Source of the DNA: Terriglobia bacterium
GTDB taxonomy: Bacteria > Acidobacteriota > Terriglobia > Bryobacterales > Bryobacteraceae
Assembly (NCBI GenBank): GCA_025363475.1
Contig: JANYDS010000067.1
Location: forward strand, 1 to 64,000
Length of the DNA: 64,000 nucleotides
Direction of reading: 5' to 3'
The notes beneath the pieces were generated by a model, which searched no databases, was not told the origin of the DNA, and was given only the letters and a program-made list of their open reading frames with translations. Positions 36,195 to 54,550 of this stretch are shown here, piece after piece. Position 1 is the stretch's first letter, and every line of letters starts with the position of its first letter. Position numbers and translations under genes: made by a program.

Positions 36195-36228
36195 AGAGGC
36201 TGGCCGGATTTCGATCCGGCCAGCCTCT
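36195..36228 (+). terminator. Strong intrinsic terminator of the OmpA-like gene
   Basis: AGAGGCTGGCCGGA (36195-36208) pairs perfectly with TCCGGCCAGCCTCT (36215-36228) around a 6-base loop. TT and then gccg follow. A stem of 14-15 base pairs, 41 bases after the stop codon, makes this the clearest terminator hairpin in the window. Confidence 0.85.
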
Positions 36229-49450: not shown

Positions 49451-50418
49451 ATGGACATTAAGCCCGGCGACAAACTCGGCCGCTACCAAGTCCTTTCGCC
49501 TGTCGGCGAAGGCGGGATGGGTGAAGTATGGAAGGCGCGCGACACCCAACTGGACCGCGATGTGGCGGTGAAGGTTTCGAAGGCAGCGTTTACCGCACGG
49601 TTTGAACGGGAAGCGCGGGCCATCGCGGCATTCAATCATCCGAATATCTGCCAGGTTCACGATGTGAGTCCGAACTATATCGTGATGGAACTGATCGAAG
49701 GGGTTCCGCTCACGGGTCCGATGCCCGTGGAAAAAGCCGTCTCGTATGCCGGTCTGATTCTTGATGCTCTTGACGCGGCGCGCCACAAGGGTTTCGCGCA
49801 TCGCGATCTGAAGCCTGCCAACATTCTAGTAACGAAACAAGGTCTGAAGCTGCTCGATTTCGGACTGGCGAAAAAAACAGTTGGGCTGGGGGATGACGAC
49901 AGAACTCTCGGCGCAGTGAGCATCTCCGGGCAGGCAAGCCCGAGAGTTTCCTGCAAACTCCGGCGGACGAGCGCCAGGCAACCTTTTCCCCCGACGGTCG
50001 CTGGCTGGCCTATGCGTCGGACGAGTCGGGCAAGTATGAGGTGTATGTGCGGGCCGTTTCCGCAAAGAGCTCTCCAGACAATGGAGGAAAGTGGCAGGTC
50101 TCGAACGCGAGTGGCATGCAGCCGGTCTGGTCGGGCAATGGGCATGAACTGTTCTTCAGGGCCGGCGAAAACGGGGTTATGGTAACCACGTACTCCGCGA
50201 ACGGGGATTTGTTTGTCCCGGAAAAGCCGCGCGCATGGTCCGGCCGGCAACTGGCGAACATTGGAGCGATTGCCAGCTTCGATCTCGCGCCGGACGGCAG
50301 GCGTATCGCTGCGATCATGCCGGTGGAAAAGCCAGAAGATCAGCAGCCGCAGAGTTACATGACCTTTCTCCTGAACTTCGCCGACGAACTGCAGCGCAAA
50401 GCGCCTGTGGGGAAATAG
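49451..50418 (+). pseudogene. Serine/threonine kinase-PD40 gene with internal deletion
   Basis: The N-terminal 155 or so codons are a Hanks-type kinase: GRYQVLSPVGEGGMGEVW (Gly loop), VAVKV (Lys), HRDLKPANILV (catalytic loop), LLDFGLAKK (DFG). After AVSISGQ at about 49930 the activation segment and C-lobe are missing. A different frame begins: GKPESFLQTPADERQATFSPDGRWLAYASDESGKYEVYVR and onward to the stop at 50418. That is the end of a WD40-like PD40/TolB propeller as found in full-length acidobacterial kinases of about 850-900 residues. The deletion removed the middle and put the two parts out of frame. A truncated protein of 244 residues could still be made but would lack the C-lobe. Confidence 0.8.
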
Positions 50419-50505
50419 ACAGCGCATCGTTCGTTCACGTATTGGATGAAGGTTTCAGACGCACATCGCGCCGGGGACCTGCAGGCAAGGCAGCAGAACC
50501 GTGGC

Positions 50506-50546
50506 GCACGCACTCGTGCGTGCCGCGTCGAGACTCATCTCGACGC
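50506..50546. repeat. Two-hairpin palindromic element (REP-like), copy 1
   Basis: Hairpin A: GCACGCAC (50506-50513), 2-base loop, GTGCGTGC (50516-50523). Hairpin B: GCGTCGAGA (50525-50533), loop ctca, TCTCGACGC (50538-50546). Both stems are perfect. The unit opens with gtggc and sits in the 182-base gap between the kinase pseudogene and a convergent secreted-protein gene; the rest of that gap holds nothing I can assign. The architecture (GTGGC, short-loop hairpin, GCC, second hairpin) is shared with the element at 53800-53847 read on the minus strand. Confidence 0.7.
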
Positions 50547-50600
50547 CTGTACATGTTTGTGAGAAAATCCGTCGGTACCCGGTCGTCACGCGAGCCAGAG

Positions 50601-51515
50601 TCAGTGGGCCGGGGCTTCCTTCGCTTCCGCCGCCTTCTTCGCGCTGGATTGCACCTCCGCGATGTTGGCCGTGTCCCGCTCTCCCTCATTGCAGACGTAT
50701 TCCAGAATGTCCGTATCAGGCAGAAGATTCTCCCGGATCTTCACCGTCACAGGCTTAGTCAGCGCCTCCGGATCGTCCACCGTAATCTCCAAGTCCATGT
50801 GCCCGAAATCGATGCGGGTAAACCGCTCCTGAAAGCGGATTTTTTCGCTGTGCAGGTGGCCGCCAGGCAGACCCTGTTTGTCGTTGTAGCCGTTCGAGTC
50901 AACAACCAGCGTGTCACCGTCCCAGTGACCGGCCGAATACCCGAGCCATGACGAGAACGGGTCCTCTGGCAGCGCGCGTCCGTCGAGATGAATCCAGCGG
51001 AAGTTGCCGTCCATCTCGTAATAGATTCCGAGCTCTTTAGCCGTCTGCATCACCTTAAACGGGCGAATATTGAAGTACTTGGCCGGCATTGCGTAGGGCA
51101 GACAGTGTAGCGTCGAATAACGTTCGTTGACGCCTGACTGCCTTACTTTCGCCTCATGCGCCCTCCACTCGGGCCGGATCGGTTCCTCACCGCGCTTGTA
51201 GTCGATGAACAGGTTGAGGAAATACTTGTTCATGTCCCTGATGTCGTCGCCTGCGGTCGCTTGCGGTCCATTGGCTTGAGCCGCACCGTAGAGGCGTTCG
51301 ATCTCGCCGGGCGCTGAATGCTCCACGGCCCACACGCCCGAAAGGTCGGGGTGTCCGTCGGAGGTGCGCGGTGTCCTGGCGATCAGGTCCGGCTTGCCAC
51401 CCTTCATCGGGGTGTCCTTCTCGTGATAAAACAGCCACTGGGCGTTGGCACTCGTCAGAGAACCGGCCAGCAGCAGGACCAGCGGCAATGATGGAAAGCG
51501 CATCCTGTTCTTCAT
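50601..51515 (-). CDS. Secreted protein of unknown function
   Basis: 304 residues. Signal peptide about 1-26 (FPSLPLVLLLAGSLTSANAQ). The mature part begins with a PRTSDGHPDLSGVWAVE motif common in a large family of exported Acidobacteriota and gammaproteobacterial proteins. IRPFKVMQTAKELGIYYEMDGNFRWIHLDGR, GHWDGDTLVVDSNGYND and HSEKIRFQERFTR follow, the family's recurring blocks. The function is not known. The C-terminus is Ala/Lys-rich. Divergent from the helicase gene. Confidence 0.75.
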   Translation of the reverse strand: MKNRMRFPSLPLVLLLAGSLTSANAQWLFYHEKDTPMKGGKPDLIARTPRTSDGHPDLSGVWAVEHSAPGEIERLYGAAQANGPQATAGDDIRDMNKYFLNLFIDYKRGEEPIRPEWRAHEAKVRQSGVNERYSTLHCLPYAMPAKYFNIRPFKVMQTAKELGIYYEMDGNFRWIHLDGRALPEDPFSSWLGYSAGHWDGDTLVVDSNGYNDKQGLPGGHLHSEKIRFQERFTRIDFGHMDLEITVDDPEALTKPVTVKIRENLLPDTDILEYVCNEGERDTANIAEVQSSAKKAAEAKEAPAH

Positions 51516-51686
51516 GCTCTGCCCGGCAGTCTATCATTCGCCGTGCGCCCTTGTCTTGCCTTGATCCGCAAGATCAAGACGTCATGAGCGTAATCTGAGA
51601 ACACTGCTATCCTGAAAGGTGTCAACGTTCAGGTTTCTTGTTTTGCCGGGTGCTCCTCTGCCGGCTGGAAGAACTGAACACAATCA

Positions 51687-52940
51687 ATGAAGCATTTCAC
51701 GGAACTCAATCTTTGCTCCGCATTGCGGAACAACCTCGCTAAAAACGAATTCGTCACGCCAACTCCCGTCCAGGCGCAGGCCATCCCGCCACTCATGGAA
51801 GGGCGCGACGTGGTCGCTACGGCGCAAACCGGCACTGGCAAAACTCTGGCGTTCGCAATTCCTGTCATTGAGGCTCTGGCCGCCGTGCCCCGCAGCAAAG
51901 TCATCAAGGTCCTGATCCTCAGCCCTACCCGCGACCTGGCCATCCAGATTGATGGAGCATTCCGGCAACTCGCCGAAGGCATGCACATTCGCACTGTCGT
52001 TGTTGTGGGCGGTTTAAGCGAGGCCAACCAGCTGCGCGATATCAAGGCCGGGGCCGAAGTGGTAATCGCTACTCCCGGACGGCTCTGCGACTATCTGGAC
52101 CGGCGCCTGATCGATCTCTCGCGTGCCGGAACCGTGGTTCTAGACGAGGCTGACCGCATGCTCGATATGGGCTTCCTGCCGTCTCTTCAAACCATCCTGC
52201 AGAAGCTTCCGGCCAAACGGCAGACCATGCTGTTCTCTGCCACCATCGAACGATCAGTAGCTCACCTTGTAGCCAGTTACGTGCACGAGCCGGTGCGGGT
52301 CGCGGTTGAAGCCTCCACGGAAACGGCCAGCCAAATAGATCTGTTCTGCTACGAAGTGCAGCAAGGCTCCAAGTTTGACCTTCTGGTTCATCTGCTGAAG
52401 CAGGAGACTGGTTCTTTCCTCGTTTTCGTGAGCAGGAAAGAAGGTGCCGACAGGCTCTCTAAATTTCTGGAGCGCGTCAGGTACAAAGTTGCGTGCATCC
52501 ACGGCGACCGGTCGCAGAGCCAGCGTAACGAAGCGTTGCAGGGTTTCAAAGACGGCGTTTACCGGGTACTTGTCGCTACCGATGTCGCCGCCCGCGGCAT
52601 TCACGTGGATGACATCGCCCACGTGGTGAACTACGATTTACCGCAGGAAGCGGAAAACTTCATTCACCGTGTGGGGCGCACGGGCAGGGCAGGCTCTCGT
52701 GGCGCTTCCTGGACTTTCGTCACCCCGCTCGAACGCTCAGATGTGCGCGGTTATGAGAGTGTACTGGGGATTCAGGTGCAATATCGCGAACTGCCAGCCC
52801 TGCCGCGGCCGATCGGGCTTGTGACTGATGTTGACGCATTTCTGGCTTCCGGCGGTACCAGTGAGCCAGCCGCCGTCGCCCCGAAGACCACATTTACCAG
52901 AAGTTTTTCCAGTGGCCGCCGCCGACCCGGTCGCCGCTGA
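51687..52940 (+). CDS. DEAD-box RNA helicase (RhlE-like)
   Basis: 417 residues with all core motifs in order: Q motif (FVTPTPVQAQAIP), I AQTGTGKT, Ia PTRDLA, II DEAD (VLDEADRMLDMGF), III SAT (FSATIE), IV FLVFVSRK, V ATDVAARGIHVDDI, VI HRVGRTGRAG. The short basic C-terminus (SFSSGRRRPGRR) suits RNA binding. Likely roles are ribosome assembly, RNA decay or cold adaptation. It converges on the LPMO-like gene with an 18-base gap. Confidence 0.95.
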   Translation: MKHFTELNLCSALRNNLAKNEFVTPTPVQAQAIPPLMEGRDVVATAQTGTGKTLAFAIPVIEALAAVPRSKVIKVLILSPTRDLAIQIDGAFRQLAEGMHIRTVVVVGGLSEANQLRDIKAGAEVVIATPGRLCDYLDRRLIDLSRAGTVVLDEADRMLDMGFLPSLQTILQKLPAKRQTMLFSATIERSVAHLVASYVHEPVRVAVEASTETASQIDLFCYEVQQGSKFDLLVHLLKQETGSFLVFVSRKEGADRLSKFLERVRYKVACIHGDRSQSQRNEALQGFKDGVYRVLVATDVAARGIHVDDIAHVVNYDLPQEAENFIHRVGRTGRAGSRGASWTFVTPLERSDVRGYESVLGIQVQYRELPALPRPIGLVTDVDAFLASGGTSEPAAVAPKTTFTRSFSSGRRRPGRR

Positions 52941-52958
52941 GTTTGCCGGTTCGATAAG

Positions 52959-53612
52959 CTACTTGGCCGCAGGCCAGCGGCTGTCGATCGGCTTTGCCGG
53001 ATCCGGAGTGATCTCAAGAACCGAGCAGTGATGGTACGAATACCCGCCAGGAACGTTGTATGGATGATCCGCCATGAACTGGACAACCTGCAGCGTGCAT
53101 TTGGGGCAATTGATATTAGGGATCTCGAGGTCAGTCTCCCAGATCATTGGCGCCTTCGGATCGACACGCTTCGACGCCGGTTCACCCGGTTTCGGATAGT
53201 GCGGGAACAGGCCGTCAATCAGCACCGGGATCTGGGGCGGGCTCTGAATTTGCGCCCACGATGAGTACGGGCCCCTCTCCGTCCACTTCTCAGCGGTGAC
53301 CGGATCGGGCGGAAGATCGGTGCGTGAATTCACTGCCAGCGCCACGCGGTAATGACCCGAGTGGAAGATCGTTTCCTGAATCTTCAAGTGAAACTTCGAT
53401 CCGCCGGTGATTTTGGTGGAGGCGTTCGTCAGGAACTTTGCATTTTCCCCATTCGTGTCCGGCAGGCCACATGGTCCGGCTTTCTGTGGATCACCCAAGT
53501 CGTTCGTCTTGACCCATTCTGCAGGCTCCATCAACTTAAAGTGGGCGAAGACAGCGAGGGGCAAAGCCATGAGCCCCACCACAAGAGCGAGCGGACGAAG
53601 CGCGATGTTCAT
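52959..53612 (-). CDS. SCE4755-type polysaccharide monooxygenase-like secreted protein
   Basis: 217 residues. The signal peptide (ALRPLALVVGLMALPLAVFA) ends so that the mature protein starts with His (A|HFKLMEP), as required for the N-terminal copper ligand of lytic polysaccharide monooxygenases. A second His candidate is in IFHSGHYRVAL. CPKC and two further Cys could form disulphides. PGGYSYHHCSVLEI near the C-terminus is characteristic of the family. Copper binding is inferred; the substrate is unknown. Family naming rests on recall of SCE4755-like motifs. The 269 bases to modB hold hairpin elements described separately. Confidence 0.78.
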   Translation of the reverse strand: MNIALRPLALVVGLMALPLAVFAHFKLMEPAEWVKTNDLGDPQKAGPCGLPDTNGENAKFLTNASTKITGGSKFHLKIQETIFHSGHYRVALAVNSRTDLPPDPVTAEKWTERGPYSSWAQIQSPPQIPVLIDGLFPHYPKPGEPASKRVDPKAPMIWETDLEIPNINCPKCTLQVVQFMADHPYNVPGGYSYHHCSVLEITPDPAKPIDSRWPAAK

Positions 53613-53799
53613 TGAAGATCTCCTTTTAAATCGAGCCCTGGCATCGATTGATCACTACTACTCTAATGCGCGGGCCAGCCGAATTCATCCACCAGCGCAT
53701 CGCCGACATCACAGACATGCCAAAAATTTACAGGTAACCACGTTAGATTATCCCTATCGGCCCACGCGGCCCTTAACTAACTGTGTTCGGGGGAAGCGC

Positions 53800-53847
53800 G
53801 GCTCGGGACAGTTCATCCCGAGCCGTGGGCATAAGCCTGCTTATGCC
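53800..53847. repeat. Two-hairpin palindromic element (REP-like), copy 2
   Basis: Hairpin B-type: GGCTCGGGA (53800-53808), 7-base loop, TCCCGAGCC (53816-53824). Hairpin A-type: GGCATAAGC (53828-53836), 2-base loop, GCTTATGCC (53839-53847). Read on the minus strand it begins gtggc, then the short-loop hairpin, then the longer-loop hairpin, the same order as the element at 50506-50546. The stem sequences differ, so structure and not sequence is conserved. It lies 38 bases upstream of modB. Confidence 0.7.
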
Positions 53848-53852
53848 ACAAT

Positions 53853-53877
53853 GAAAAACCGCCCCGGATGGTTTTTC
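53853..53877 (+). terminator. Terminator- or attenuator-like hairpin before modB
   Basis: GAAAAACC (53853-53860) pairs perfectly with GGTTTTTC (53870-53877) around a 9-base GC-rich loop. It ends four bases before the GTG/ATG start choices of modB. It could end transcripts entering from upstream or mask the modB ribosome site. There is no sign of the known molybdenum-cofactor riboswitch. Confidence 0.45.
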
Positions 53878-53884
53878 AAAGGTG

Positions 53885-54550
53885 ATGCAAATCGACTGGT
53901 TTCCGCTCTGGCTCAGCCTTGAAGTAGCGACTCTTGCGACCCTGATTTCCCTTGTCGCCGGCATCTGGCTCGCGTGGCTGCTCTCCCACAAAGACTTCGC
54001 AGGAAAAAACGTCCTCGACGCCATTACAACCCTCCCGCTGGCACTCCCGCCCACCGTACTCGGTTACTACCTGCTCGTAGTCATCGGTCGCACCAGCTGG
54101 CTGGGCGGCGCCTGGGAAGCCATCACCGGCTCACCCCTCGTCTTTACGTGGAAAGCCGCCGTAATCGCATCCACTCTCCACGCGGTGCCACTCCTCGTCA
54201 AATCAACACGCGCTGCGCTCGAAAATGTCGATCAATCCTATGAACGCGCCGCCCGCAGCCTGGGCGCTTCCGAATGGCGACTCTTTTGGCGCATCAGCAT
54301 CCCGCTCGCCCGACGCCCCATCGCCGCCGCCACAGCCCTCGCTTTCGCCCGCTCCCTCGGCGATTTCGGTGCCACGCTCATGATCGCCGGTGACATCCCC
54401 GGTCGCACCCAAACCGCCGCGATTGCGATCTACGACGCGGTGGAGTCCGGCAACACTATACTGGCCCGAACTCTGGTAATCGTGATCTCGATTCTCACCG
54501 CAGCCATCGTCTGGCTGTCCAACTGGCTGGAGGAGCGCAGAGCCCGGTGA
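53885..54550 (+). CDS. modB: Molybdate ABC transporter permease ModB
   Basis: 221 residues from ATG 53885 (a GTG directly before it is also possible). Five to six transmembrane helices; EAA-type loop for contact with the ATPase: YERAARSLGASEWRLFWRISIPLARRPIAAATALAFARSLGDFGATLMIAGDIPG. The FGATLMIAG stretch is typical of ModB. It forms the membrane channel for molybdate/tungstate. modC follows after 13 bases. No modA-like binding protein is encoded in the window on either side. Confidence 0.92.
   Translation: MQIDWFPLWLSLEVATLATLISLVAGIWLAWLLSHKDFAGKNVLDAITTLPLALPPTVLGYYLLVVIGRTSWLGGAWEAITGSPLVFTWKAAVIASTLHAVPLLVKSTRAALENVDQSYERAARSLGASEWRLFWRISIPLARRPIAAATALAFARSLGDFGATLMIAGDIPGRTQTAAIAIYDAVESGNTILARTLVIVISILTAAIVWLSNWLEERRAR

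Follow-up and report, generated by a model that had tools for sequence, protein, structure and literature searches.

A two-hairpin REP in a Terriglobia genome is probably a leftover of a RAYT system, and a nearby look-alike is probably unrelated

The 64,000-nucleotide stretch analysed here (the window) comprises positions 1 to 64,000 of contig JANYDS010000067.1 from a Terriglobia bacterium of the family Bryobacteraceae, and it carries two intergenic structures that a first-pass annotation had placed in one family of repetitive extragenic palindromic (REP) type. Element A (50501–50546, + strand) lies between a forward-strand frame that stops at 50418 and a reverse-strand gene that ends at 50601. 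Element B (53799–53849), read on the reverse strand, sits between a reverse-strand gene (52959–53612) and a divergent ABC-transporter permease gene (53885–54550, +; Pfam BPD_transp_1, E = 2.1 × 10−24), which we take to be modB. We conclude, with a probability of about 0.85, that A is a REP left over from a REP-associated tyrosine transposase (RAYT) system, probably one that stood ahead of a RAYT gene since deleted, and that B is unrelated to it. G, C and L numbers are our handles for genomes, contigs and loci.

Both structures begin with GTGGC and continue with two hairpins, as the first-pass annotation had described. In A, GTGGC (50501–50505) includes a GTGG tag (50501–50504) and precedes hairpin 1 (50506–50523), which as written reads GCACGCAC-TC-GTGCGTGC, with 8 bp and a 2-base loop. 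The aligned copies described below favour 7 bp and a CTCN loop instead (stem 50506–50512/50517–50523, loop CTCG 50513–50516); 98.8% of the alignment cells in this stem are paired, and five of its seven pairs have changed on both sides. A linker of one C leads to hairpin 2 (50525–50546), GCGTCGAGA-CTCA-TCTCGACGC, in which a 9-bp stem (50525–50533/50538–50546) encloses a 4-base loop (50534–50537), with 98.3% of cells paired and both-sided changes in eight of nine pairs. In B, GTGGC (53849–53845, −) is followed by the hairpin GGCATAAGC-AG-GCTTATGCC (53847–53828, −; 9 bp, 2-base loop), the stem of which uses GGC of GTGGC, so that the "tag" is partly paired, unlike that of A. After a 2-base linker comes a palindrome with 10-bp arms around a 7-base centre (53799–53825), which falls outside the A family.

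Adjacent perfect hairpins as such are not unusual and show no clear excess above chance, with four pairs in a 355,857-base sample against 3, 2, 3, 1 and 2 in five first-order Markov controls. The combination of GTGGC with two hairpins after it occurred just at the sites of A and B, and in none of four controls, in a test devised post hoc. It is the homologous copies in other genomes that make A a real repeat; for B, the comparisons turned up nothing apart from its self-complementarity. The first-pass annotation had named ordinary terminators as the competing explanation, and neither A nor B is terminator-like: a stem followed by a T run was found at three sites in 49500–54500, none of them at A or B. 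No part of the window matched Rfam at gathering scores.

A blastn search with 50400–50620 gave matches in six of 41 genomes, including its own, the non-self matches spanning about 50–67 bases around A; no copy was found in 14 of the 19 genus genomes. Within the window's family, A-type repeats occur in 36 of 101 genomes among the matches listed, part of which were retrieved. Copies of 46 bases without N gave 85 distinct cores; removal by hand of five partial or shifted ones (L057, L119, L052, L307 and L058) and addition of the window copy gave an alignment of 81 rows, 80 of them distinct. The core of A is identical at 46 of 46 bases to copies in G123 (L281) and G098 (L280). Throughout the alignment, tag, CTCN loops and base pairing are all kept: the GTGG columns (1–4) are at least 90% conserved, 98.5% of cells are paired, and 13 of the 16 stem pairs have been altered on both sides. 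Covariation was 0.356, compared with 0.125 in shuffled alignments (0 of 500 as high, a count that does not equal a probability, as the rows are related by descent) and at most 0.064 in slid ones. The proposal that structure is conserved while sequence is not is therefore borne out among the copies of A, where mean column identity is still 88%, but it does not extend to A and B as one family.

A covariance model built from the A family, with 150 candidates scored per genome, gave A itself 77 bits. The further copies that had been predicted are present for A: six clear ones (E ≤ 3.4 × 10−5) and two weak ones in its own genome, among 150 of 3045 candidates. Elsewhere, copies numbered at least 150 in each of G098 and G124, 147 in G005, 52 in G025, 35 in G018, five in G009 and two in G001, and none was found in G002 or G010 among the candidates scored. 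At nine of the 30 loci L279–L308 (by eye), a second copy in inverted orientation stands no more than about 150 bases away, the arrangement of REP doublets forming hairpins (REPINs); the own genome has one such pair on C36 (1510+/1574−) and a weak one on C50 (31942+/31997−). As to whether the copies fall only between genes, a test that is crude in GC-rich DNA suggests depletion from long open frames rather than absence: 25 of 37 lie inside open frames of at least 150 codons, compared with 687 of 740 random positions. On our reading, A is a short non-autonomous mobile repeat of the REP kind: two tandem hairpins, each closed by a CTCN loop, follow a GTGG tag.

The first-pass annotation had further suggested mobilisation by a Tnp1/REP-associated transposase. 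RAYT relatives were taken as the best 80 of at least 407 (587 pattern matches in the species genomes) and from the 101 family genomes, 71 of which had RAYT matches among those listed, giving 151 distinct loci. A-type repeats were found in the flanks of 16 of the 151 loci, on both sides and inverted in 12; in G025, a RAYT-type gene lies between inverted A-type repeats, the contig terminating within the second. A tree of 94 of the 151 loci, made by a quick method with Shimodaira–Hasegawa-like approximate likelihood ratio test (SH-aLRT) supports, left out one locus with A-type flanks (L135) for its short match. Of the 15 A-labelled rows, 13 grouped in a single 16-row clade (SH-aLRT 94), and the label required five changes, compared with 14.2 after shuffling (none of 500 shuffles as low). 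Every one of the ten family genomes whose RAYT fell in this clade was A-positive (P = 1.3 × 10−5; only fetched RAYT loci were placed), and because each of the ten has at least three A matches, the bracketing copies alone do not account for the association. The link to RAYTs thus holds in relatives, where A-type repeats bracket one RAYT clade, but not within the own genome, whose RAYT-like genes fall outside that clade.

The proteins themselves are consistent with a Y1-type enzyme. The gene at L078 matched Y1_Tnp with 31.1 bits (cut-off 23), the best solved relative of the RAYT profile was TnpArep (4er8), and in an alignment of RAYT proteins VH and Y are invariant, with NHVH in six of seven rows and SRVH in the remaining one (L095). 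At seven of 17 loci (L100, L186, L191, L194, L212, L219 and L225; by eye), the A-clade RAYT frame reads through the 3' repeat, yielding a tail of SACAT at six loci and SARAT at one before the frame goes on, so that the tail of the enzyme would be encoded by its own substrate. In sister RAYT clades, the inverted repeats differ from this type in both stems and loops. A flanking inverted repeat with a score of at least 18 was found at 67 of 91 RAYT loci; 50 of the 67 carry a tag near its outer end (GTGG at 40, GTAG at 10), and 25 have two tandem hairpins, compared with two of 198 control windows. Five IS200-type transposases (L070, L071, L072, L075 and L076) were rejected as partners of A, their surroundings showing no A-type repeat beyond a 14-base match in L070. 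We also noticed, in a genome with at least 150 copies (G124, contig C40, 32706–33255), a RAYT broken into two frames with inverted A-type repeats on both sides.

The window's own genome does contain Y1_Tnp matches. Its RAYT-like genes, on C63, C41 and C64, all fall outside the A clade in the tree, the one on C64 with stops, and full-length RAYT matches in this genome and in G001, G005, G009 and G018 reach at most 45–52% identity to an A-clade member. A fragment on C88 was considered as an A-clade RAYT (56% to L212 over 43 residues) and rejected, as it is nearer the decayed C64 gene (81% over 43 residues). No A-type repeat was found in the DNA examined around C88, C41, C64 and C63, and no A-clade RAYT was detected among the RAYT-like genes and fragments compared. 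A therefore looks like a relic. Just 13 bases 3' of A is a TGAGAA-type motif, TGAGAAAATCC (50560–50570, +), in the place and form seen between the 5' REP and the RAYT start in relatives. TGAGA occurs in this interval at 56 of 91 RAYT loci, compared with three of 89 control stretches. It follows within 40 bases at ten of the 106 A-type copies with enough sequence: the window copy, seven at a RAYT or broken RAYT (L106, L212, L194, L225 and L191, plus L078 and L299 by manual assignment) and two more (L052 and L267). It is plausible, we infer, that a RAYT gene once lay downstream of A and has since been deleted. TGAGAA-like motifs are common to RAYTs with differing repeats, and a promoter, a leader or part of a mobile unit is conceivable.

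Following published REP/RAYT work, a RAYT, as a single-strand HUH/Y1 enzyme, would bind the folded strand through the tag and hairpins, cut beside the folded REP and then move or copy it. In Escherichia coli, TnpA-REP is described as binding single-stranded REP and cutting at an adjacent CT (PMC8266576; here and below, published systems are compared from the accessible parts of the sources cited). Binding of this kind would require the tag, the loops and the pairing to persist, while the letters of the stems may drift. The A family agrees with this, its tag and loops being constant and its stems covarying. In the window, A would have been left behind in a genome with no detected RAYT of the matching clade. 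Several points count against this reading. The mobility of A-type REPs is argued by analogy throughout, and the alignment rows share descent, as noted. REP_Tyr_transpos (NF047646), the best NCBIfam match of all four RAYT proteins scanned, scores 69.9–76.7 bits, under the curated cut-off of 80. Two A-labelled rows lie outside the clade (L243, with repeats not inverted, and L127, a Verrucomicrobia locus), and three rows inside it lack the label (L184, L196 and L204). TGAGA is absent from 35 of 91 RAYT loci, so the step that posits a lost gene draws on a modest signal. Many A copies occur without a detected RAYT of the clade (147 of 150 candidates in G005, 35 in G018), so another RAYT or process may spread them; the assemblies are incomplete.

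That last point could be taken further, to the view that A-type repeats are spread by other RAYT clades or by gene conversion and that the single-clade association is secondary. G005 combines many copies with sister-clade RAYTs only (best identity 52%), and G128 and G093 have A copies but no RAYT match at E = 10−5; the 12 loci with inverted A on both sides and the clustering of the label in the tree nevertheless make this explanation unlikely. It is also quite unlikely that A is kept for a local RNA or DNA role, such as transcript-end protection or binding of gyrase or another protein between convergent genes, with mobility as mere history. The position of A between a forward frame end and a reverse gene end would suit such a role, its predicted RNA fold is stable (z = −2.9), and similar roles are reported for REPs in the accessible literature, but A has no fixed, conserved place, given the genus genomes without a copy, and it lacks a terminator-like T run. 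As for a single REP family embracing A and B, its architecture kept without its sequence, we regard this as very improbable. Both do have GTGGC and two hairpins, and B is the second-best match in the window to the A model; its 14.7 bits (E = 0.13 for the window), however, are at noise level, the next match outside the A locus scoring 12.9. Furthermore, the loops of B are not CTCN, blastn with B in 41 genomes returned only B itself, and its partly paired GTGGC coincides with the upstream motif of the next gene. The REP-like family thus stands for A and not for B.

What B amounts to is then best considered from the side of the permease gene, strong orthologues of which were found in 17 of the 18 other genus genomes, with G005 lacking a strong one. 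A promoter-like motif, TGCCACAAT (53844–53852, +), precedes the gene, and its GCCAC (53845–53849) is the GTGGC of B on the other strand. TGCCAAAAT or a near form lies upstream of 11 of 18 permease orthologues (own included), 21–41 bases before the start and in one case with two mismatches, and TGCCA[AC]AAT occurs ten times in the 355,857-base sample, compared with two for the reversed pattern. On this view, B consists of two palindromes private to this site, which overlie a promoter-like motif in the space separating divergent genes. Its role would most likely be that of an operator or a leader structure for the permease operon, although a private insertion is also conceivable. The B strand folds strongly (z = −3.4 and −4.9 in two stretches); weighing against this reading of B are the seven of 18 permease upstream regions without the TGCCAAAAT motif. 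We considered, and rejected, B as a structure kept before the permease, the orthologous upstream regions inspected being without the palindromes (by eye). This absence agrees with an origin of B as a diverged or recent insertion from another, unsampled repeat family unrelated to A, as do sister-type REPs (GTGGGGCAGCC...) upstream of a modB-like gene in G014 and G017 (L259 and L260). Such an origin is doubtful, though it keeps a real, minor chance: the palindrome at 53828–53847, with 9-bp arms and a 2-base centre, is single-copy in its own genome with up to three mismatches allowed, the further copies predicted for B being absent there as in the blastn search of the 40 other genomes. A third inverted repeat (53852–53878, 9-bp arms), just before the permease start, could mask the ribosome site.

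Returning to A as a RAYT-derived REP, we tentatively propose, at somewhat less than even odds, that it represents a bipartite, loop-coded form, in which the RAYT would read the tag and the loops and ignore the letters of the stems, loops and enzyme changing together. In one described system the tag contributes to selecting the cleavage site, and for two group 3 enzymes the bases of the loop are reported to matter (PMC8266576). Among the 25 two-hairpin REPs beside RAYTs, the two loops of one REP matched at 5.4 bases, compared with 4.08 between REPs (0 of 5000 shuffles, a test inflated by related loci). This would fit a shared protein surface as the reader of the two hairpins, perhaps one supplied by two protomers. 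In the A alignment, ATC occurs in loop 1 of four of the 81 rows, all from G018 and all with ATC in loop 2 as well; three more carry it only in loop 2. In the CAATCCTG/CCTTTCAGG group, the two loops are unlike.

Among described systems, REP/RAYT (TnpA-REP), REPtrons and REPINs resemble the A family in having a GT(A/G)G tag where the palindrome begins, the many copies reached in some genomes, the inverted pairs, the bracketing of a Y1/HUH transposase gene by the repeat, and a repeat of its own for each RAYT clade (PMC2817692, PMC8266576, PMC6006769). The A family differs in its two tandem hairpins with like loops and in its hosts, Acidobacteriota (Bryobacterales). In relatives, the A system shows the testable features of REP/RAYT systems; in its own genome, the cognate RAYT is missing. 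The RAYTs on the A side fit TnpA-Y1 subclass 2.4, or RAYT group 4, in NHVH, WQ, YIxNNP and a length of about 194 residues (PMC6006769, table 1), a placement by motif alone; the repeats of that subclass are described as long, double-foot or gene-inserted, unlike the tandem hairpins of A (PMC6006769). Genes of the TIRYT type, which encode tyrosine transposases flanked by terminal inverted repeats (TIRs), include some from Acidobacteria; some of the TIRs are described as double palindromic, and some recur in the genome (PMC3733652). The TIRs, compared with A by description only, are reported as unrelated to GTAG-type REPs, many carrying GGGGWSAS (PMC3733652). Solibacter usitatus, of the same phylum, has a class 3 TnpA-Y1 with about 600 hairpin copies beside Y1 genes, with a CnGA foot and a YV[VI]xEQ motif where the A system has GTGG and YIENNP (PMC6006769). 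A hairpin-bulge-hairpin REP is mentioned in subclass 2.2 (PMC6006769), and together with the double palindromic TIRs it indicates that relatives of A may already have been glimpsed. The accessible parts of the literature on REP/RAYT, REPINs, Acidobacteria, Solibacter, Bryobacter and double-hairpin repeats yielded no description of the A family. The A family brings common soil bacteria into the study of REPs and RAYTs, adding a REP built of two hairpins, and the many RAYT–repeat pairs (67 of 91 loci) allow loops, stems and proteins to be compared for how a RAYT knows its own REP. The case of A and B also illustrates that nearby look-alike structures can be unrelated.

Two further features of the window deserve mention. 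The protein kinase gene ending just 5' of A (49451–50418, +) looks broken: its Pkinase match breaks off after 149 of the 263 profile positions, with the remainder continuing in another frame (open reading frame 50041–50418, with no Pfam match). Further away, at 36195–36228, two perfectly complementary 15-bp arms flank a 4-base centre; no other perfect hairpin in the scan had a longer stem.

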